From IMG/VR virus record IMGVR_UViG_3300043436_001419, positions 1 through 37,502 of that record: a stretch of 37,502 bases of DNA. The stretch is one strand, 5' to 3'. Numbering within the stretch: the stretch's first letter is position 1; the number at the start of each line of letters is the position of its first letter. Of this stretch, positions 1 to 37,470 are shown one piece after another. Source of the DNA: a virus. Position numbers and translations under genes: made by a program. Under the pieces are notes generated by a model. The model saw only the letters and a list, made by a program, of their open reading frames with translations. It made no database searches and had not been told where the DNA came from.

Positions 1-160
1 TTTCCCTGCCTTCCCTAGTGTAATCAAAGTTCTGTAATACTTCACGAAGGTTATCGCCGTCAATATGCACGTGCTTTGTGCCTAGTTTTTCAATAAGTGC
101 TTTTGCTAATGTTGTTTTGCCTGATGCTGGTTGTCCGCAGAACCAATAAATCATATTCAT
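1..160 (-). CDS. CysC-like kinase, 5' part only (repeat copy)
   Basis: This is the first 53 codons of the adenylylsulfate-kinase-like gene whose full copy is at 37024-37470. It starts with ATG at 158-160, includes the P-loop GQPASGKT and is cut by the window edge. Its start overlaps the stop of the DUF2061 gene as ATGA, so on the circular genome the two genes are directly coupled. It is not a second gene and not a pseudogene. Confidence 0.9.
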   Translation of the reverse strand, partial: MNMIYWFCGQPASGKTTLAKALIEKLGTKHVHIDGDNLREVLQNFDYTREGRE

Positions 161-192
161 TTTTTTAATCCGTACTTAATATATTTATACCA
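1..192. repeat. Left copy of 192-bp terminal direct repeat
   Basis: Bases 1-192 match 37311-37502 in the same orientation, offset 37310, with one difference: T at 128 versus G at 37438. The difference falls in the third base of a proline codon (CCA versus CCC) of the CysC-like kinase, so it is silent. The match runs to both window ends, which is what a circular or circularly permuted genome gives when the assembly overlaps itself. The mismatch suggests strain variation or a read error rather than an exact k-mer overlap. Confidence 0.95.
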
Positions 193-360
193 TATCCTTT
201 CGTGAATGTAATATTGTAGTGGCTTGTATAGTATTTCAGCAATGCTGAATGTTGCTCCTACCTTGATTGAACCGCTAACCATATACATAATCACAAACCC
301 TATTAATGTGCTTACTATTCTATACGATATTGTTTTCGCTATGTGCCTTTTCTTGTCCAT
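157..360 (-). CDS. DUF2061-like small membrane protein
   Basis: A 67-residue protein with a basic N-terminus (MDKKRHIAKTISYRIVST), a hydrophobic stretch at about residues 16-31, a second amphipathic segment and a C-terminal pattern ending in YYIHERIW. This matches the small inner-membrane family DUF2061. As I recall, DUF2061 proteins in Bacteroidota often sit next to sulfate-activation genes (cysC, cysD, cysN). Here the stop codon overlaps the ATG of the CysC-like kinase (ATGA), which fits that context, and its 5' end overlaps the dioxygenase gene by 41 bp. Its molecular role is unknown; a link to sulfate uptake or PAPS supply is inference from position. Confidence 0.75.
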   Translation of the reverse strand: MDKKRHIAKTISYRIVSTLIGFVIMYMVSGSIKVGATFSIAEILYKPLQYYIHERIWYKYIKYGLKK

Positions 361-1165
361 CTTCTTTATTGAGAAATGCTTTGAGTGGATAAAATATTAA
401 ACTATTCCTATATCCCCCCTCGTATGTTGGGATGATAGGGGTAACTCCATGAACATTCTTCCACGCAGGGTAAACGAGCATTGAATTGTCTTGTTGTCCG
501 AATGTGGCATTATAATCGGGAACGTGTAAGTCGCCACCTTTGGCATTGTGTTTCTTACATATAATTACATTGACCGCACCAACTATGTTTCCTGTATCAC
601 GATGGAATGGTGCTGATATATTATAATTTGAAATAGAACTTGTAAACATATTAGCGAATCGCCACTTCTCATCAACTCCTTCAAAGATTTTCATTTGTTT
701 AGCATATTGTTCCGGCATATATTCTTTGATAACCTGTTCGCTTTCTTTGGCTAACATTAGCATCGCCTTAATGAATGTCTGTGCTGATTCAACTCCATGA
801 ACGGATGATATAGTACCATAGTAACGCATGAATTGTGGTTTCGGTGGAACGCTTCCTAATATAACTGACATCTGTGTTGTGCCTACCTTCCTTGCCTGTT
901 CCCTTGTCATTCCTGGATTTTCTATCTGTGCTTTCAACACATCCGACCTATCAAGTTTTGTTTTCGGTACTCGCTTACTATTGAATTCGCTATTCGCTAT
1001 GTCGGCAAGTTTACACATCCTTTCTGGCATCTTGGTAATATAGAAGCCTATCGGTTCGCCATTCTCATATAAAATACAATCATCAACTACATTCGGTTCC
1101 CTGTATTCACATCGTGAACCTATCTTTGTAGTATGTTCAACCTTCTGTAAATCAATGCGTTTCAT
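320..1165 (-). CDS. TET/JBP-type 2-oxoglutarate/Fe(II) DNA-base dioxygenase
   Basis: A 281-residue protein whose C-terminal half carries a double-stranded beta-helix dioxygenase signature: H188-R-D190 (HxD, Fe ligands) in PFHRDTGN, a GGDLHVP turn at 210-216, a third Fe ligand H239 in VHGVTPI and R253 in GYRNSLIFYP for the 2-oxoglutarate carboxylate. This spacing and the HGV..R.S pattern are those of the TET/JBP family, which oxidises 5-methylcytosine or thymine in DNA. The N-terminal ~170 residues are alpha-rich and unrecognised. The gene lies 2 bp after a sulfotransferase and two genes after a TET-associated-type glycosyltransferase, the usual company of phage TET enzymes. The likely role is to create a hydroxymethyl handle on phage DNA. 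Another 2OG oxygenase (for instance a prolyl-hydroxylase type) is less likely given the neighbours. The substrate base cannot be told from sequence. Confidence 0.8.
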   Translation of the reverse strand: MKRIDLQKVEHTTKIGSRCEYREPNVVDDCILYENGEPIGFYITKMPERMCKLADIANSEFNSKRVPKTKLDRSDVLKAQIENPGMTREQARKVGTTQMSVILGSVPPKPQFMRYYGTISSVHGVESAQTFIKAMLMLAKESEQVIKEYMPEQYAKQMKIFEGVDEKWRFANMFTSSISNYNISAPFHRDTGNIVGAVNVIICKKHNAKGGDLHVPDYNATFGQQDNSMLVYPAWKNVHGVTPIIPTYEGGYRNSLIFYPLKAFLNKEDGQEKAHSENNIV

Positions 1166-1167
1166 AA

Positions 1168-1731
1168 TTAGTGTCTGTTTGGATAGTAGTTAAATCTAAT
1201 AAAGTCCTGCTTATAGAATTCATATGCCATATCTTTTGTTTCGGGAGTCCAAAAATTAATTGACTGACTAACATTCAATGGGTTCAATAACTTTAAGAAC
1301 AAATCATTTTCCATCTTATGAATATGAATGCCCTGTTGTAGCATTTGTGATTGTGGTAAATAGTGCCTTTCCTTTTCCTCAATGTTTATGATAGCGTGTA
1401 GGAACTCTTTGAATGGCATACCGATATAGAATATATCTTCATTCGGGAATACCTTTCTGTCCATTGACTTGTAAATCTTTTGGCTATACAAACTCATAAC
1501 CCTGTCAAAAGGATTACGAACATAAGCGAAGTTGTAATAATCGGGCAATACTTCTTCTGTGAATTTGAATCCAATGTCCTGTCCATGAATATCCATTTCG
1601 TTACCATTCTTGTATGGTATTGTTAGTCCTAACTCTTTGGCGAAATAAGTTTTCAAAGTAGTACAACAGGTTTTGGGCAGATACCAATATACTATCTTCT
1701 TATCTTCTAGGATAATGCCACGATTTTTCAT
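1168..1731 (-). CDS. PAPS-dependent sulfotransferase (Sulfotransfer_2 type)
   Basis: A 187-residue protein with both PAPS-binding signatures: the 5'-phosphosulfate loop YLPKTCCTTLKTY (residues 17-29) and the 3'-phosphate site YVRNPFDRVMSLY (70-82). The form PK..CTTLK resembles the carbohydrate sulfotransferase-2 family, which moves sulfate from PAPS to hydroxyls of sugars. It is compact, about the minimal size for the fold, with no signal peptide or membrane segment, so it acts in the cytoplasm. Its start overlaps the glycosyltransferase stop (ATGA) and the dioxygenase begins 2 bp after its stop. Downstream on the circle are a CysC-like kinase and a nucleotidylyltransferase that could supply PAPS. 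I infer that the acceptor is the sugar or hydroxyl placed on phage DNA by its neighbours. A host glycan or virion protein is the alternative. Confidence 0.85.
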   Translation of the reverse strand: MKNRGIILEDKKIVYWYLPKTCCTTLKTYFAKELGLTIPYKNGNEMDIHGQDIGFKFTEEVLPDYYNFAYVRNPFDRVMSLYSQKIYKSMDRKVFPNEDIFYIGMPFKEFLHAIINIEEKERHYLPQSQMLQQGIHIHKMENDLFLKLLNPLNVSQSINFWTPETKDMAYEFYKQDFIRFNYYPNRH

Positions 1732-2468
1732 TTCTTGTGTTTTAATTTGATTTCAAAAAACTCTTTATTCTTTTTAATATTATTGACTTGACAATGATTA
1801 GGGAATTTATTTAATAGGTATAATCCACTAGCCTTCACTCTTTCTTTTGTTCGTGTTATCTGCATACCACCTTTCATCTTGTAGTAATTAGTATCAATCG
1901 CTATGTTGTTGAATCTCAATACACTACCGAACTTGATGTAATATAATATGCTCCTTTCATAATCTCCCTTATCATCTATTGTCTGTGTCAGGAAGTTGTC
2001 ATGGTCTATGATTTGACCAAAACAAGCACCAACGATATATCTTAAATCAGCACTCGGCTTCTTATTGAACATGAATAAGCCATTCTTAACTGCTGATACA
2101 CCCCATAACTTTGTGCCTATCTTCTTGGATAAATCAAATCCCCTCAATATCAATTCGTGTAATTCTGTAACTAATACTAGGTCTTTGACAGATACGGCTT
2201 TATATATCCCTGCTATATCATCATCCAAACTGAATACCATCTCCCCATCTTGAAAGTAATGCCTAATATAGTTCCTTTGATTACGGATAGTTTCTACTCC
2301 AACGATTATGTTCTTTAATCCTAGAACAGAATAATCCTGCTTCTCCTGTTCGTTAGCCACGAATAGATAAACATTATCAAGGCTGATATTGGTTTTCTTT
2401 AAGTATGCTAGTGTTTTACTAGCGAATACATCAACTCTTTTGTAAGATGGTATGGCAATCTTATACAT
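1728..2468 (-). CDS. GT-A glycosyltransferase resembling TET-associated glycosyltransferases (TAGT)
   Basis: A 246-residue protein opening with MYKIAIPSYKR, a typical nucleotide-sugar-binding first strand, followed by IRNQRNYIRHYF (61-72) and the metal-binding acidic run LDDDIAGI (81-88), equivalent to the DxD of GT-A enzymes. This arrangement is that of the TET-associated glycosyltransferases predicted to add sugars to hydroxymethyl-pyrimidines in phage DNA. It overlaps the ParB-like gene by 8 bp and the sulfotransferase by 4 bp, so it is translated with them. No membrane segment is seen. The donor sugar is unknown, and no sugar-nucleotide biosynthesis gene is recognisable in the genome, so a host UDP-sugar is likely. 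Other GT-A families cannot be excluded from motifs alone. Confidence 0.75.
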   Translation of the reverse strand: MYKIAIPSYKRVDVFASKTLAYLKKTNISLDNVYLFVANEQEKQDYSVLGLKNIIVGVETIRNQRNYIRHYFQDGEMVFSLDDDIAGIYKAVSVKDLVLVTELHELILRGFDLSKKIGTKLWGVSAVKNGLFMFNKKPSADLRYIVGACFGQIIDHDNFLTQTIDDKGDYERSILYYIKFGSVLRFNNIAIDTNYYKMKGGMQITRTKERVKASGLYLLNKFPNHCQVNNIKKNKEFFEIKLKHKK

Positions 2469-3054
2469 TCTTTTCCTTTTCTTCTTTCAACTTTTCCATA
2501 AGGAAGCCACCAATATACAATCCCTGTTCTCTCCACCACTTTACCAATTCCTGTGCCGCTTCATAGTGTTCTAGTTCAAACTCAATCTGTATGGCTTTCT
2601 TAATGTTCTTGGTCATATCAGATAGGTCGCTAGATAAATCATCCTCGTTTAAGATAGATAAATCTATTTCTTCTGCCTTCTTCCATACATCCAATCCCCA
2701 ATCATTTAGTTCGCTATCATCCCAATCATTAGCCAACACATCCCAATCCCATTCACCGAATGATACGTTATCCTTGATGGTAAATTCTCTCTGTTCACTC
2801 TCTGTTAAATCTTTGGCAACGATAACAGGTATTTCTTTAAGTCCTGCTTCTTGACAGGCCCTTAAACGCATATTACCCCCTAGAATAACCATATCTGTAT
2901 TAACAACGATAGGTCGTATTTCAAGCATCTTTGGGAAGTCCTTAATAGATTTCACTAATGCTTTATACTTATGGTCTTTTATTACCCTAGGATTTTCAGG
3001 GTTCGGTAGTACTTTATTTATCTTCAAGTACTGGAAGTGCATCTGGGTTGCCAT
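2461..3054 (-). CDS. ParB-like nuclease-domain protein without methyltransferase
   Basis: A 197-residue protein with a ParB/Srx N-terminal domain: NPENPRVIKDHKY (18-30), RPIVVN (47-52) and the phosphate-binding motif LGGNMRLRA (58-66). The following stretch FTIKDNVSFGEWDWDVL (91-107) and the WGLD motif are typical of phage proteins in which ParB is fused to a DNA methyltransferase, but here the chain ends with a short charged helix and no methyltransferase motifs follow. ParB-like proteins recur in phage TET/glycosyltransferase clusters, possibly to direct modification to DNA or to act as a CTP/ATP-dependent clamp or nuclease. It heads the modification operon, overlapping the glycosyltransferase by 8 bp. 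Specific function unknown. Confidence 0.8.
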   Translation of the reverse strand: MATQMHFQYLKINKVLPNPENPRVIKDHKYKALVKSIKDFPKMLEIRPIVVNTDMVILGGNMRLRACQEAGLKEIPVIVAKDLTESEQREFTIKDNVSFGEWDWDVLANDWDDSELNDWGLDVWKKAEEIDLSILNEDDLSSDLSDMTKNIKKAIQIEFELEHYEAAQELVKWWREQGLYIGGFLMEKLKEEKEKNV

Positions 3055-5327: not shown

Positions 5328-6665
5328 TTAAAAAGGATTTTCATATTCCTCAAACTTCATTAACTCGCCTATGAAACGGAACGGAATATTTTTAAGACTG
5401 CCATGTCTGTTCTTGGCTACCTTAACAACGCATAGTCCGTTGCTTGGTATAGTGTTCCCACTTATTTCAATCTCGGGTATGTTATATGTTTCCGGCCGCA
5501 TCAAGAATATAACACTATCAGCATCCTGTTCAATCCCACCACTTTCACGCAGGTCGGATAGTTGTGGTAACTTGTCAGGCCTGTTTTCAACTGCCCTACT
5601 TAATTGTGATAAGGCAATAACAGGTATGTCTAGTTCCTTGGCAAGTATTTTACAACCCCTACTGATTTCTGCTATCTCACTTTCCCTGTTTCCTTTCCTA
5701 TCAACTCCGCTCATAAGTTGCAGATAATCTATACATAGTAATTGTATGTTGTACTTACGTTTCATAATGGTCGCTTTACTACGCAACTCACGAATGTTAA
5801 GGCTAGGACTATCATCAATATATAATGGATATTTAAGCATTTGGCTTTCTGTTTTATTGATAATAGATTGCTCGTGTTCTGTGATAATATTGTGTCGTAG
5901 ATTGTGGTGCTTAATCTTGGTTACTAAACTTAACAACCTATTGACTAACTGCGTTCCACTCATTTCTAAACTAAATACCCCTACGGCCTTGTCCTGTTGT
6001 AATACATTCAGTATCGTATTTAGCATGAAGGCAGTTTTACCCTGTGCTGGTCTAGCGGCAAGTATGATAAGGTCAGGATTAACCCATCCGCTGACTATCC
6101 TATTCAAACTCGGCCATCCTGTGTCTATACCTATCTGCCCATTCTCAAATATCTGCCCTCGTTGTTTGGCTAACTCAAACAGATAGTGAAACATATTTAG
6201 TTCTGTGGACTTGTATACTTTCTGTTGAGCATTGATAATTTCATTACTTGCACTATTTAATATGTTGCTAATCTCTGTGGTTGTATAGGAATTGTTGATA
6301 AGTGTATGGCCTATCAATATACCCTGTCGTTGTAAGTACAGATGTTGTAATATAACAACCCAATCTTGTATGTGAGCAGCACTTACTACATCATTAGTTA
6401 GTTTAACAATAGCATACGCACCCCCAATCTGTTCTATTTGATTTGTTTGTGTTAAGTGATTAACGACTGTCACTAAATCAACTGCGATTGTTTTATCGTA
6501 TAAGTGTACGATAGTAGTATAAATAATTTGATGGTGCTGATTGTAAAAGAAATCTACTGATAACTTGTTTACAACATCGGGAATACATCTAGGTTCTATA
6601 AGTAAAACACCTAGAATACTTTTTTCCACCGATATATCATTCGGCGGTGCTTTTGTTTCGTACAT
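5328..6665 (-). CDS. Replicative DNA helicase, DnaB family
   Basis: A 445-residue two-domain protein. The N-terminal DnaB domain covers about 10-115 (SVEKSILGVLL, VVNHL...GGAYAIVKL). The RecA-like domain has Walker A ARPAQGKTAF (204-213), EMSGTQLVNRLLS, Walker B LLCIDYLQLM and the arginine-finger region (DLRESGGIEQDADSVIFLMR, by its ends). Length is normal for DnaB. It unwinds the fork and loads host primase. It starts with ATG after a 200-bp G-rich spacer that is a candidate origin. No helicase loader or primase gene is recognised, so host DnaG is probably used. Confidence 0.95.
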   Translation of the reverse strand: MYETKAPPNDISVEKSILGVLLIEPRCIPDVVNKLSVDFFYNQHHQIIYTTIVHLYDKTIAVDLVTVVNHLTQTNQIEQIGGAYAIVKLTNDVVSAAHIQDWVVILQHLYLQRQGILIGHTLINNSYTTTEISNILNSASNEIINAQQKVYKSTELNMFHYLFELAKQRGQIFENGQIGIDTGWPSLNRIVSGWVNPDLIILAARPAQGKTAFMLNTILNVLQQDKAVGVFSLEMSGTQLVNRLLSLVTKIKHHNLRHNIITEHEQSIINKTESQMLKYPLYIDDSPSLNIRELRSKATIMKRKYNIQLLCIDYLQLMSGVDRKGNRESEIAEISRGCKILAKELDIPVIALSQLSRAVENRPDKLPQLSDLRESGGIEQDADSVIFLMRPETYNIPEIEISGNTIPSNGLCVVKVAKNRHGSLKNIPFRFIGELMKFEEYENPF

Positions 6666-6870
6666 TGGCCTGTTTTTTATGGTTATTTAATAGGGGTTAC
6701 CCTGTTATATGGTTTGCCTGTTTTGGCTAAAATTGGGGGGGGGTAGGTCTGTTTTAAGGTCATTTTAGGTCGTTTTTAGGGGGTTTTGGCCTAAAATAAG
6801 GGTTTGGGCTAGGTTAAGGGGTTAAAATGGCTATATGCGGCTAAAAACGGCATATAAACCGATTTATACC
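6666..6870. other. G-rich gene-free spacer, candidate origin
   Basis: Between DUF4373 and dnaB lie 205 bp with no plausible gene. The plus strand has G9 at 6735-6743, G5 at about 6779-6783, and spaced GGTC/TTTTAGG units (GGTCTGTTTTAAGGTCATTTTA within 6745-6785). It shares GCCTGTTTT..GGCTA followed by TTGGGGGG with 12754-12779. Direct short repeats next to replication genes and potential G-quadruplexes fit an origin or a regulatory leader of dnaB. No DnaA box was seen. Confidence 0.4.
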
Positions 6871-7296
6871 TTATATGCTTATTTTGGTCACAAATCCCTT
6901 TATTTCATTTGTTTCCTTTATTTCCTTTGCATTAGCACCCCTACTAGCCACCCCATTACCCCATCTACGATTTGCCCCTTCCTTACCTTTGTCAGATAGT
7001 GTCTTACGAAGTTTCAAATGTTCTGCCAAACGGATGCTGAAAAATGTTTCATCCTGTATGACAAACAAATTGAACTGCCGAATAACGCAATCAACTTTGG
7101 CTTCTGTTACTTGCATCTGCATAGCGAGGACAGGGGTAATATTCAAAGGCAATACTCCACCACTCAATGCCAGTGCCTCAACTAAATACCAATAGATACC
7201 ATAACCTTCCATACCTAATTGTTGGCGAAGGAATAACACCTTCACATCGTTAGCCGCATTATAATCGTGGCTAAAATAATAAGAGTTTGATTTCAT
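6871..7296 (-). CDS. DUF4373 (Lin1244/Lin1753-like) replication-associated protein
   Basis: Start set at the ATG of MKSNSYYFSHDYNA; a TTG five codons upstream (7311) is possible. The N-terminal ~90 residues (YYFSHDYNAANDVKVLF, LGMEGYGIYWYLVEAL) are typical of the DUF4373/Lin1244 domain, found in phage and plasmid replication-initiation proteins of Bacteroidota and Firmicutes. The C-terminus is short and basic (KGKEGANRRWGNG) and lacks the longer tail of many members. Immediately upstream of the G-rich spacer and dnaB, it is a good candidate initiator or helicase-loading factor. Confidence 0.75.
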   Translation of the reverse strand: MKSNSYYFSHDYNAANDVKVLFLRQQLGMEGYGIYWYLVEALALSGGVLPLNITPVLAMQMQVTEAKVDCVIRQFNLFVIQDETFFSIRLAEHLKLRKTLSDKGKEGANRRWGNGVASRGANAKEIKETNEIKGFVTKISI

Positions 7297-7309
7297 ACAG
7301 ATAGTTACC

Positions 7310-7344
7310 AAAACACGAAAGCACCTGATTAGGTGCCTCGTGCT
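7310..7344 (-). terminator. Hairpin terminator after wHTH gene
   Basis: The minus strand forms CACGA-GCACCT paired with AGGTGC-TCGTG around a loop AATC with a small internal bulge, followed by TTTT. It lies between the 7354-7590 gene and the DUF4373 gene. The stem is strong; the U-tract is short, so termination may be partial. Confidence 0.65.
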
Positions 7345-7353
7345 TGGATTTGT

Positions 7354-7590
7354 TTAGTTTAATAAATAAATCTTCCTTTCTTTTTTGTAATAATGAATCT
7401 TAATCAACTTGTGCTTTTCTAATGCGAATAACCAATTATTGATTGTCATAGTACTAACATCAAATTCTAGGGCATAAAAGTTGTTATTCTTTTCTAGGTT
7501 ATTGTTGTTTTCCTTCAACCATCCATAAAATAGTTTCGCTGCTGCCGTTAATTCTTTTTCATAAAACACATCACGTTCAATACATATCAT
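7354..7590 (-). CDS. Winged-helix DNA-binding protein, 78 aa
   Basis: A helix (ELTAAAKLFYGWLKE) is followed by a helix-turn-helix (FYALEFDVSTMTINNWLFALEKH) and a wing (KLIKIHYYKKERKIYLLN), the layout of HTH_36-like domains in replication initiators and regulators. It lies in the replication block, upstream of DUF4373. It could be part of an initiation complex or a repressor. Confidence 0.65.
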   Translation of the reverse strand: MICIERDVFYEKELTAAAKLFYGWLKENNNNLEKNNNFYALEFDVSTMTINNWLFALEKHKLIKIHYYKKERKIYLLN

Positions 7591-7593
7591 AAT

Positions 7594-7848
7594 CTACTTT
7601 GTTAAATTGTTATAAATCTTTACCGCTTCCCTTTTGTTGAGGACATTGAACTTACCGAACTTAATCATTCTGCCGAACTTATTTTTGTGTGGCTGATTAT
7701 CACAAACGATATTCACACCTGCTTTACGTAAATGTGTTATCGCTGATGTTGGGTTACATACTCCTAACTTAACTATGCTCATAGTTGTTTGCTCTCCTTG
7801 AAGTAATGAATACAATACTTCTGTTTTTTGATTGATTGGTTTTTTCAT
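7594..7848 (-). CDS. Winged-helix protein, 84 aa
   Basis: Start placed at ATG 7846-7848 (MKKPINQKTEVLYSLLQ), which overlaps the TGA of the small membrane gene as ATGA. A longer TTG-like extension to 7902 would overlay that gene and adds an atypical N-terminus. The sequence EVLYSLLQGEQTTMSIVKLG, then PTSAITHLRKAGVNIVCDN forms an HTH with a wing, a type common in mobile elements that switch on GC-poor phage operons. DNA target unknown. Confidence 0.65.
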   Translation of the reverse strand: MKKPINQKTEVLYSLLQGEQTTMSIVKLGVCNPTSAITHLRKAGVNIVCDNQPHKNKFGRMIKFGKFNVLNKREAVKIYNNLTK

Positions 7849-7955
7849 TTTTTTAAAATTGATTTGATTAAGAAATAGAATTCTAATGTTAGATATACGC
7901 ATATAAATACAGGTATACTAATTAATAAGAAATACAGAATTGATAATAGTTTCAT
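7845..7955 (-). CDS. Small single-span membrane peptide, 36 aa
   Basis: ATG at 7953-7955 overlaps the stop of the upstream gene (ATGA), and its own stop overlaps the ATG of the downstream gene (ATGA). The peptide begins MKLLSILYFLLISIPVFICV, almost wholly hydrophobic to about residue 30, then KSILKK. Coupling at both ends is good evidence that it is translated. Function unknown. Confidence 0.55.
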   Translation of the reverse strand: MKLLSILYFLLISIPVFICVYLTLEFYFLIKSILKK

Positions 7956-8344
7956 TTGTTTATCCTTTTGATTTTATGAATACAATGTAAAATGGTAGTA
8001 TGGTCACGTTTTAAATACCTGCCTATTTCACTTGCCCCATAACCTTCTTTATAGGCTTCTACACAAAATTTGTTACGCATAGTTATAACATCACGCTTTC
8101 TATTTTTTTCTGCTAGTTCTTTGTATGTTATATTATTCTGTAACATATACTGCTCTGCCCACTTCTTTAAACCTATTGCACTTTTTTTCTTGTGGATATA
8201 AACTTCTTTTGTTTCACGAACCACCTTAACAACCTCACGAGTTACTATCATGTTGTCAAGCAAAACTTTAATACGTTTCAAAGTATGGTCAGAGCAGTTA
8301 GTATATAACTTTATGTATTTCAAAACATTATTTACTTGTTCCAT
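7952..8344 (-). CDS. DnaA domain IV-like DNA-binding protein
   Basis: A 130-residue protein whose C-terminal ~40 residues (RNKFCVEAYKEGYGASEIG, then RYLKRDHTTILHCIHKI) match the DnaA domain IV helix-turn-helix with its signature DHTT. There is no AAA+ domain; the N-terminal half is a helical, basic region. Family knowledge says DHTT contacts DnaA boxes. It may bind a phage origin or compete with host DnaA. It overlaps the exonuclease gene by 13 bp. Confidence 0.75.
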   Translation of the reverse strand: MEQVNNVLKYIKLYTNCSDHTLKRIKVLLDNMIVTREVVKVVRETKEVYIHKKKSAIGLKKWAEQYMLQNNITYKELAEKNRKRDVITMRNKFCVEAYKEGYGASEIGRYLKRDHTTILHCIHKIKRINK

Positions 8345-8985
8345 TTATCATTAAGTAAGTCATATAGGTTATTTAAATATTTACCTGCCTTGTCTATCTT
8401 GGATAGTAGCAACTCGCAATCTTCCATATTGATTGGAATACGAAGCGTAAACATCTGCAACCCTTCTGGCATTTCTTTACAATACGAAACGAAATCACAA
8501 TACTGCCTGTTACTAACTAGCATATCACTTTGGCATTGCCAATAGTATTCACGATACTTTGCTTTAAAGAACTCAACATCATTGACTAGTCCATAGTGAA
8601 TATGGTTTTGATAGTTGTATGGGCATTTAACTTGAATGATACCATCATCATTAACGAACCCATCGGGAGTTCCACCATACAATCCCTCAATACATTCAAT
8701 GTAACCGCAGTCAGTTACAATGTTGCCTGTCTTTTTCATATAGAATTGTAAGGCTTCTGCTTCTAATTCTAGTCCATGAGTTGTGGCATCGCTTTTGAAA
8801 TCACGATACACACCTGTTAATTTCTCTGCTAGTTTACCCATAAGGTAATCTTTTGTTGTACTAGATAAATCGCCATTATCCTTTTTGGCTTTCTCCTTTG
8901 GTTCAACAATAAGATTCCAAATTGTGCTGCTTGTTATTTTTCCAAGTCGGGTTTTGAACCATTCTTGACTATACGTTTCTATCAT
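8332..8985 (-). CDS. YqaJ/lambda-exonuclease-like recombination nuclease
   Basis: A 217-residue protein with the YqaJ viral recombinase layout: SQEWFKTRLGKITSS (6-20), HGLELEAEALQFYMKKTG, GGTPDGFVNDDGIIQVKCPY and YYWQCQSDMLV. It would resect double-stranded ends for the ERF annealase next door, whose gene overlaps it by 17 bp. One oddity: the PD-(D/E)xK lysine motif reads QVK rather than EIK/EVK, so the acidic metal ligand is glutamine (codon CAA). Some nuclease families tolerate QxK, so activity is still possible. Confidence 0.85.
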   Translation of the reverse strand: MIETYSQEWFKTRLGKITSSTIWNLIVEPKEKAKKDNGDLSSTTKDYLMGKLAEKLTGVYRDFKSDATTHGLELEAEALQFYMKKTGNIVTDCGYIECIEGLYGGTPDGFVNDDGIIQVKCPYNYQNHIHYGLVNDVEFFKAKYREYYWQCQSDMLVSNRQYCDFVSYCKEMPEGLQMFTLRIPINMEDCELLLSKIDKAGKYLNNLYDLLNDKWNK

Positions 8986-36587: not shown

Positions 36588-37037
36588 TTACATAATATTA
36601 CTAATGATGTCCTCTTGTAATTCTTCGGGAACTAGATGTCGCCAACTGCCATTCCCTGCTTTGATTGATTCACGAATATAGGTAGCCGATATGTTTGCTA
36701 TTTCTTCTGTCGGGGTATATTTGTTTACTTCATAGCCTACACCCCTGCCAAAGTTCACAGATTCAATGTCAGGGATAATCATAACCTCAACATCTTGTTT
36801 CCTTTCCCTGTGATATTTCAATATCATATTCTTTGTCTGTTGTGATGTGAACGGATTGCCAGCATCGGGTTCAATATCCCTTATAAGTATAAGAACAGGC
36901 ACTCCTTTGTGTAACTTCTGTTCAATCAATTGAATATGACCGAAATGATAAGGCTGATACCTTCCAATGAATATCGCTCTTTTCTTATCCTTGTTCTTAG
37001 TTGGTTGTCCACCATAGTTTCTTTTAACCCATGCCAT
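36588..37037 (-). CDS. HxGH nucleotidylyltransferase (NadM/ATP-sulfurylase-like superfamily)
   Basis: A 149-residue protein with the nucleotidylyltransferase signatures GRYQPYHFGH (25-34), AGNPFTSQQTKNMI (59-72), VNFGRGVGYEV and ISATYIRESI (116-125), then WRHLVPEEL. The end resembles NMN adenylyltransferase NadM; ATP sulfurylase belongs to the same superfamily. It overlaps the CysC-like gene by 14 bp. With that kinase it could form a minimal PAPS-making pair (ATP + sulfate to APS, APS to PAPS). Other options are NAD synthesis or activation of a sugar for the glycosyltransferase. The transferase class is secure, the substrate is not. Confidence 0.8.
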   Translation of the reverse strand: MAWVKRNYGGQPTKNKDKKRAIFIGRYQPYHFGHIQLIEQKLHKGVPVLILIRDIEPDAGNPFTSQQTKNMILKYHRERKQDVEVMIIPDIESVNFGRGVGYEVNKYTPTEEIANISATYIRESIKAGNGSWRHLVPEELQEDIISNIM

Positions 37038-37470
37038 TTGATTTGTTATTTAGTATTTTAATAATGCAGTTTTCTACTGATTCGTGTGTAGTATCAATAT
37101 CTATATAATCTTCTGTTGGAACTTCAAATTCTGCAACAAAAAACTTCTCTCTGCCACGAATTTCGCTAGTGTGGACATATACCTCAACCATTTGATTTGA
37201 AGCCTTTAATGCCCTCCTGTGTTCGTTATAGGGGGCAACTACACTAATGATAACATCATAGCCTTCGTTATCCATAAACCTTGCAATATCTAATACAGAT
37301 TGTATGTTCTTTTCCCTGCCTTCCCTAGTGTAATCAAAGTTCTGTAATACTTCACGAAGGTTATCGCCGTCAATATGCACGTGCTTTGTGCCTAGTTTTT
37401 CAATAAGTGCTTTTGCTAATGTTGTTTTGCCTGATGCGGGTTGTCCGCAGAACCAATAAATCATATTCAT
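37024..37470 (-). CDS. Adenylylsulfate kinase-like protein (CysC family)
   Basis: A 148-residue P-loop kinase: Walker A GQPASGKTT (9-17), HIDGDNLREV (32-41, the CysC DGDN-R motif), YTREGREKNIQSV, VIISVVAPYNEHRR and VEVYVHTSEIRGRE, ending DYIDIDTTHESVENC. These align in order with APS kinase, which phosphorylates APS to PAPS. It is ~50 residues shorter than E. coli CysC, mainly in the lid and C-terminus, as in short versions I recall from Bacteroidota. Downstream of DUF2061 (through the repeat) and upstream of an HxGH transferase. The main alternative is a kinase for hydroxymethyl bases in DNA, but the DGDN motif and the sulfotransferase favour PAPS. Confidence 0.82.
   Translation of the reverse strand: MNMIYWFCGQPASGKTTLAKALIEKLGTKHVHIDGDNLREVLQNFDYTREGREKNIQSVLDIARFMDNEGYDVIISVVAPYNEHRRALKASNQMVEVYVHTSEIRGREKFFVAEFEVPTEDYIDIDTTHESVENCIIKILNNKSNGMG

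Follow-up and report, generated by a model that had tools for sequence, protein, structure and literature searches.

Results

Organisation of the locus

The window – the whole stretch of DNA analysed, 37,502 nucleotides in length – derives from an uncultivated virus whose hosts are bacteria. Toward its left end four open reading frames (ORFs), encoding a ParB-like protein, a TAGT-like glycosyltransferase (GT), a sulfotransferase (ST) and a TET dioxygenase, follow one another at spacings of -8, -4 and +2 bp (Table 1). ORF prediction and Pfam searches bore out the positions and identities that the first-pass annotation had given these four adjacent genes; the limits it had set for the operon, 157-3054, proved too narrow. 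The virus record is terminally redundant, the two copies of its repeat agreeing at 191 of 192 positions, and the 5′ part of the APS kinase gene is present again at 1-160 by way of the repeat. Because this 192-bp repeat joins the ends of the record, the two halves of the operon are a single operon of seven genes, which continues across the junction with DUF2061, an APS-kinase-family gene and the gene of a small nucleotidyltransferase (NTase) and runs up to the terminase genes. In two related records (L003 and L005) the same genes are uninterrupted. Ka/Ks is approximately 0.04-0.15 for operon genes, in comparisons with unsaturated Ks; the ORFs are therefore taken to be real proteins under purifying selection.

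Table 1. Genes of the operon and the terminal repeat, with positions in the window
Feature	Position	Strand	Remark
ParB N-terminal-domain protein, 197 aa	2461..3054	-	Opens the operon; presumably binds DNA as a partner protein
TAGT-like GT-A glycosyltransferase, 246 aa	1728..2468	-	Predicted sugar transfer to hydroxymethylated base
PAPS-dependent sulfotransferase, 187 aa	1168..1731	-	Sulfotransfer_2 (carbohydrate-type) family
TET/JBP 2-oxoglutarate-Fe(II) dioxygenase, 281 aa	320..1165	-	PF12851 and iron ligands
DUF2061 predicted membrane protein, 67 aa	157..360	-	PF09834; partner of the APS kinase module
APS-kinase-family kinase, 148 aa	37024..37470	-	PF01583; predicted PAPS maker
Small nucleotidyltransferase (NTase), 149 aa	36588..37037	-	NMNAT/CoaD fold; proposed sulfate adenylyltransferase
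Terminal repeat, left copy	1..192	.	Right copy 37311-37502

Proteins of the predicted modification genes

The product of the first gene matches ParB_N in Pfam (3.5e-10) and phrog_17622 and phrog_498 among the PHROGs, and ParB lies 5′ of the GT or TET gene in all related TET loci that cover that side. The GT scores 23.3 bits against PF20691 TAGT (7e-5), under the 27.5-bit cut-off, a point against sulfation of DNA. Its profile aligns to the TAGT set with a probability of 99.3 (hhalign), its PHROG match is phrog_842, beta-glucosyl-HMC-alpha-glucosyltransferase (1.3e-8), and Mycobacterium phage Acadian encodes, next to its TET, a protein (gp3) with 31% identity to it (E 1e-33); residues 82-84 form the acidic metal motif DDD.

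The sulfotransferase belongs to Sulfotransfer_2 (PF03567; 3e-15, 57.5 bits, cut-off 22). Both PAPS motifs previously claimed for it were located – PKT of the PSB loop at 19-21, and the 3′-phosphate motif VRNPxDRxxS, with VRNP from 71, R72 and S80 – and both are conserved in relatives. A fold search of BFVD returned annotated viral sulfotransferases as best matches (E about 1e-5). The PDB gave no significant match by sequence or by fold, which counts against sulfation of DNA, and three cassette sulfotransferases found no match in INPHARED.

The dioxygenase matches PF12851 Tet_JBP at 35.0 bits, the cut-off being 34.9 (1.1e-8; 7.7e-11 in the genome search, where relatives reach 49.8 bits and the TET of L030 86-88 bits), and nothing in the profile searches places it outside TET/JBP. 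The iron ligands H188, D190 and H239 and the 2-oxoglutarate-binding R253 are exactly the residues named at first pass, and are invariant across 11 aligned TETs. Given the TET/JBP profile match and the iron-ligand motif, the label 'Queuine tRNA-ribosyltransferase', carried by phrog_6059 and several RefSeq entries for the dioxygenase, was judged a misnomer and dropped. As to the substrate of the TET, C5-cytosine methyltransferase (PF00145) is absent from the window and from the L003 and L005 records, being present solely in L012 and L015 among the related records searched, and the virus record holds no gene of the thymidylate synthase or dCMP/dUMP hydroxymethylase families; both absences tell against sulfation of DNA.

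A predicted module for making the sulfate donor

PAPS, the donor used by sulfotransferases, is made by APS kinase. The kinase of the operon matches PF01583 at 4.9e-19 (69.3 bits, cut-off 21.1). Against the function-level equivalog TIGR00455 it scores 71.4 bits, under the cut-off of 138.7, which its relatives in L054, L065, L066, L078, L093 and L126-L128 reach. In a PDB profile search the best 24 of 26 matches were either APS kinases themselves or bifunctional proteins that include one; on this ground the reading of the protein as a nicotinamide riboside kinase was rejected.

The NTase matches CTP_transf_like (1.4e-6), and the folds nearest its structure model (pLDDT 94) are archaeal NMNAT and CoaD. 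ATP sulfurylase, with no match in Pfam or among the best 50 fold matches, was set aside as its identity given those nearest folds. So was NMNAT: the protein scores 47.8 bits against TIGR01527 NMN adenylyltransferase (cut-off 181.2) and aligns chiefly to the N-terminal half of NMNATs. Likeness to NMNATs rather than to ATP sulfurylase is a point against sulfation of DNA. The closest bacterial NTases, 61-64% identical, adjoin canonical APS kinases (255-285 bits), and no canonical ATP sulfurylase was found in bacteria carrying the NTase family next to APS kinases. We propose that the NTase is a sulfate adenylyltransferase.

The DUF2061 protein (PF09834, 6.4e-15) has counterparts in 35 of the 73 viral NTase loci. 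In L065 DUF2061 forms one gene with a canonical APS kinase, which at 260.7 bits clears the TIGR00455 cut-off, and this fused gene, a sulfotransferase and the NTase are consecutive.

Linkage and replacement in related phages

An APS kinase relative accompanies the NTase in 141 of 158 related loci. Of the 35 places at which a sulfotransferase occurs in 50 viral records carrying the NTase, 25 are no more than 3 kb from it, against an expectation of 4.4. Two further phage backbones (L008 and L013) also keep GT, ST and TET as a group, making three in all.

Sister phages retain ParB and DUF2061-APSK-NTase (NTase 89-90%, APS kinase 93-97% identical), and the block between them has been swapped twice, for different genes. 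The replacement in L035 holds a Sulfotransfer_3 enzyme (1.3e-12), unrelated to that of the window, and a TAGT (1.6e-42); that in L030 holds a distant TET (1.7e-24) together with two less certain proteins, one perhaps a sulfotransferase and the other perhaps a glycosyltransferase. In the former, a 204-aa protein, GCGRSGTKY and VRCPLKQIESAY are reminiscent of the two PAPS motifs; it has no Pfam match, nothing useful came from searching PHROG and the PDB, and hhalign probabilities are 23 against Sulfotransfer_2 and 1.7 against Sulfotransfer_3, so we do not class it as a definite sulfotransferase.

Comparative support for the prediction is strong. Several loci point the other way where sulfation of DNA is concerned: L035 has no TET within its 18.7-kb record, despite its sulfotransferase, TAGT and APSK-NTase, and the link of the sulfotransferase to TET is therefore not a strict one; in L008, which carries the sulfotransferase, APSK-NTase is lacking between TET and terminase; and some kinase-NTase pairs, including those of Pelagibacter, occur in settings with no visible sulfotransferase.

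Discussion

Gene identity, active-site conservation, operon structure, purifying selection and the association of sulfotransferases with the kinase-NTase pair are observed; we infer the enzyme activities, the order in which they act, that the sugar is the acceptor, which base is modified and what the modification is for. The seven genes probably hypermodify phage DNA by way of TET, then a sugar, then sulfate from PAPS made by the phage itself. TET would start from thymine or 5-methylcytosine in DNA and convert the methyl group of this 5-methylpyrimidine to hydroxymethyl by oxidation. The TAGT-like enzyme would add a sugar to the hydroxyl so formed, and the sulfotransferase would then sulfate that sugar with PAPS as donor, so that the base ends up sulfoglycosylated and anionic. 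The donor could be supplied by the NTase, making APS from ATP and sulfate, and by the APS kinase, converting APS to PAPS. Hypermodification would precede packaging, and the sulfated DNA may be protected from host nucleases. A sulfate-bearing DNA modification had been suggested at first pass; as a prediction it is now supported by new evidence: the operon also encodes an APS-kinase-family protein and a partner NTase, such pairs are linked to sulfotransferases in other viruses, and the GT/sulfotransferase/TET block is replaced in sister phages.

In an alternative reading, TET and the TAGT-like enzyme glycosylate DNA, but the target of the sulfotransferase and PAPS module lies elsewhere, for example in a protein of the virion, a glycan on the host surface or a small molecule. 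Sulfotransferases are common in viruses, and the papers examined (PMC8290583, PMC11309003) describe them only as generic auxiliary metabolic genes; L040 carries APSK-NTase-sulfotransferase in a sugar-metabolism cluster without TET. We nonetheless regard a target other than DNA as unlikely: the sulfotransferase gene sits between GT and TET with ends overlapping or almost touching, the GT-ST-TET set remains together in three phage backbones, sister phages swap the sulfotransferase along with the GT (and TET), and no second glycosyltransferase turned up among the window ORFs scanned.

Decidedly improbable, in our judgement, is that kinase and NTase serve NAD salvage, as nicotinamide riboside kinase and NMN adenylyltransferase, with sulfation unrelated and host PAPS used. 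The NTase fold is indeed nearest archaeal NMNAT, and a phage relative, Stenotrophomonas phage Bhz60, carries a NADAR gene next to a fused kinase-NTase pair; but close by in Bhz60 there is also an ORF that weakly resembles sulfotransferases, the matches of the kinase are to APS kinases and not riboside kinases, the NTase falls far short of NMNAT cut-offs over an alignment mainly to their N-terminal half, its close bacterial relatives adjoin canonical APS kinases, and sulfotransferases cluster with the pair.

In phage thymidine hypermodification a pyrophosphate ester is thought to be displaced, and the 5-hydroxymethyl group might analogously be activated as a sulfate ester, sulfate being only a leaving group; the adjoining TET and sulfotransferase genes and the known reactivity of sulfate esters of hydroxymethyl aromatics would fit, but this is very improbable given that no amino-transferring or other displacing enzyme is seen in the operon, that the sulfotransferase is of the carbohydrate-type Sulfotransfer_2 family, and that the cassette has a glycosyltransferase.

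ParB, TAGT and TET beside terminase are a known setting for DNA hypermodification. Phage TET/5mYOX-TAGT hypermodification clusters, reportedly described by Burke et al. in 2021 and Pyle et al. in 2024, share with the window a TET, a TAGT-family GT and a ParB-like protein beside terminase genes; the window adds a sulfotransferase and a PAPS-making module, and no C5-methyltransferase was found in the genome. The cultured phage Acadian has the order ParB-TET-TAGT-TerS-TerL plus one more tailoring gene, and its gp1-gp4 resemble the window in ParB, TET and the homologous GT adjoining terminase; its tailoring gene, however, is PIG-L-type deacetylase-like (by inspection), whereas that of the window is a sulfotransferase. 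Prochlorococcus phage MED4-184 has ParB-TET-TerS-TerL, again with one more tailoring gene; in MED4-184 / P-HS2 a TET 46% identical to that of the window has ParB upstream and terminase downstream, but an FkbM-type methyltransferase (by inspection) fills the GT/ST slot. T-even phages obtain 5hmC from the nucleotide pathway, not through TET, and have no sulfotransferase step. The second glucosylation in T6 has been assigned to a TAGT (PMC13390438), and the T6-type beta-glucosyl-HMC alpha-glucosyltransferase is of the same broad family as the window GT (phrog_842). PAPS synthase (APS kinase plus ATP sulfurylase) likewise couples an APS-kinase-family protein to a nucleotidyltransferase, often by fusion, but the window NTase is small, NMNAT/CoaD-like and outside the ATP sulfurylase family.

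Known phage base modifications include glycosylated, aminated and deazaguanine bases, and we know of no sulfated DNA base. A full-text literature search, with the principal TET/TAGT studies outside its reach, returned neither a sulfated DNA base nor a TET-sulfotransferase operon. More tentatively, and with rather less than even confidence, we suggest the full combination: a sulfated glycosyl-pyrimidine whose donor is made from sulfate via a minimal NMNAT-like sulfate adenylyltransferase, not near known ATP sulfurylases and widespread in viruses and some bacteria.

If the prediction is right, the virus would carry a negatively charged DNA base modification known to us nowhere else. The major groove would gain a fixed negative charge from the sulfate, a new means to alter the recognition of DNA by nucleases and possibly its packaging. 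The comparison further yields a specific functional proposal for a nucleotidyltransferase family, so far uncharacterised, that adjoins APS kinases in many viruses and in bacteria.

Results

All four open reading frames from which the first-pass annotation predicted an operon placing sulfate on phage DNA are borne out (see table), and a Pfam search puts the dioxygenase in TET/JBP as proposed, at a score barely over the cut-off. The suggested catalytic residues H188, D190, H239 and R253 are invariant among 11 aligned TETs, two of which come from Prochlorococcus phage MED4-184 and Mycobacterium phage Acadian. Both PAPS motifs of the sulfotransferase are present: the 5′-phosphosulfate loop is PKT (residues 19-21) and the 3′-phosphate motif is VRNPxDRxxS, with R72 and S80. 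Ka/Ks between the window and its relatives is ~0.04-0.15 wherever Ks is unsaturated. PHROGs (phrog_6059) and several RefSeq phage records (NC_020847.1 and NC_023701.1 among them) label this TET family 'queuine tRNA-ribosyltransferase', a misnomer in view of its TET/JBP match and HxD...H...R motif.

The limits drawn for the operon proved too narrow. Since the first and last 192 bp of the 37,502-bp record are identical at 191/192 positions, the ends join, and the operon continues unbroken across them through DUF2061 (a predicted membrane protein), an APS-kinase-family kinase and a nucleotidyltransferase (NTase) to TerS and then TerL, with gaps from ParB to TerL of -8, -4, +2, -41, -4, -14, +1 and -11 bp. 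Two related records of similar size (L003 and L005) carry the same gene order uninterrupted. Searched against the PDB, the kinase profile has as its best 24 matches APS kinases and bifunctional proteins with an APS kinase domain. PAPS, the product of APS kinase, is required by every PAPS-dependent sulfotransferase; the position of these genes across the contig ends hid this link from the first-pass annotation.

Features of the operon in the window
Feature	Position	Strand	Evidence or setting
NTase (149 aa)	36588-37037		between kinase and TerS
Kinase (148 aa)	37024-37470		APS_kinase 4.9e-19
DUF2061	157-360		within unbroken operon across join
TET dioxygenase	320-1165	-	Tet_JBP 1.1e-8, 35.0 bits (cut-off 34.9)
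Sulfotransferase	1168-1731	-	Sulfotransfer_2 3e-15
TAGT-like glycosyltransferase	1728-2468	-	TAGT 7e-5, under cut-off
ParB-like protein	2461-3054	-	ParB_N 3.5e-10

Discussion

Three lines of evidence connect the sulfotransferase with the kinase-NTase pair. An APS-kinase relative, mostly adjacent or fused, is encoded in 141 of 158 loci found via the NTase. Across 50 NTase-bearing viral records, several of them close relatives and so not all independent, 25 of 35 Sulfotransfer_2/3 places lie <3 kb from the NTase (4.4 expected by random placement), and 31 records have such a sulfotransferase. Finally, sister phages keep the rest of the region and exchange only the block between ParB and DUF2061-kinase-NTase: glycosyltransferase-sulfotransferase (Sulfotransfer_2)-TET in the window, sulfotransferase (Sulfotransfer_3, 1.3e-12)-TAGT (1.6e-42) in L035, and TET (1.7e-24)-possible sulfotransferase-possible glycosyltransferase in L030. 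The predicted user enzymes vary and the putative PAPS module is constant. L035, an 18.7-kb fragment, has no TET in its record despite a sulfotransferase, TAGT and kinase-NTase module at 5628-8883.

In a further relative (L008:947-2247) the glycosyltransferase is 93% identical to that of the window and the sulfotransferase just 73-74%, with synonymous changes saturated; this discrepancy suggests that cassette genes recombined separately. The kinase module is absent at the corresponding place in L008, also a fragment.

The NTase is predicted to make APS, and is a candidate non-canonical sulfate adenylyltransferase. Its confidently predicted model (pLDDT 94) is nearest in fold to archaeal NMNAT and CoaD; its score is far under NMNAT cut-offs, and alignment is mainly to the N-terminal half of NMNATs. 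The closest bacterial copies (61-64% identical) stand in Bacteroidota genomes beside canonical APS kinases (255-285 bits, cut-off 138.7). Of 24 NTase-bearing bacterial genomes, 20 gave no hit to ATP-sulfurylase (PF01747) or to CysD; most are incomplete assemblies, which makes this absence a weak argument.

Small NMNAT/CoaD-like NTases paired with APS kinase, often with DUF2061, are widespread in viruses and occur in some Bacteroidota (L065:6032-8450; loci L053-L125 and L126-L128). Among the viral loci L053-L125, 73 in all, 35 encode DUF2061; L065 has it as a fusion with a canonical APS kinase, followed by sulfotransferase and NTase. In Stenotrophomonas phage Bhz60 (L041:4957-6720) a fused kinase-NTase gene adjoins a NADAR gene, and nearby Bhz60_00032 has a sulfotransferase-like motif (LPRSRSAW) and a weak Sulfotransfer_3 match (E 0.0077). 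Related pairs with a divergent NADE-type kinase occur in Pelagibacter ubique HTCC9565 (L174:7549-8351) and SAR86 (L175:7568-8345); this kinase is without the DGD motif, no sulfotransferase is evident near either pair, and its activity or substrate may differ.

As to the acceptor, a sugar is favoured, given that the Sulfotransfer_2 family comprises carbohydrate sulfotransferases and that the operon encodes a glycosyltransferase; the hydroxymethyl group could serve instead. Since neither a C5-methyltransferase nor a thymidylate-synthase-family enzyme was found in the window record, the TET may act on thymine, on host-made 5mC or via an unrecognised enzyme. A TET locus without sulfotransferase (L012:165-803) has a short C5-methyltransferase-like ORF (motif PPCP) upstream of ParB, with no homologue in the window or the other searched loci.

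Gene orders in cultured phages with relatives of the window TET, and glycosyltransferase homology, place the operon in a recognised class of DNA hypermodification loci with a varying tailoring enzyme. Acadian has ParB-TET-TAGT-PIG-L-TerS-TerL and MED4-184 ParB-FkbM-TET-TerS-TerL (PIG-L and FkbM assigned by inspection); whereas Acadian has PIG-L among its tailoring genes and MED4-184 has FkbM in the tailoring slot, in the window a sulfotransferase fills it. The window glycosyltransferase is 31% identical to that of Acadian (E 1e-33) and matches a TAGT set by hhalign (probability 99.3). The TAGT enzyme of T6 likely adds the second glucose on T6 hydroxymethylcytosine (PMC13390438).

The TET/TAGT/ParB cluster type is already known, and sulfotransferases in themselves are nothing new in phages, being annotated in cyanophages, for instance. 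A search of 50,697 phage records with the window sulfotransferase and the two cassette replacements returned no match to any of them. As far as we can tell, and allowing for a possible prior mention, such loci have not been described with a predicted sulfation branch that supplies its own PAPS.
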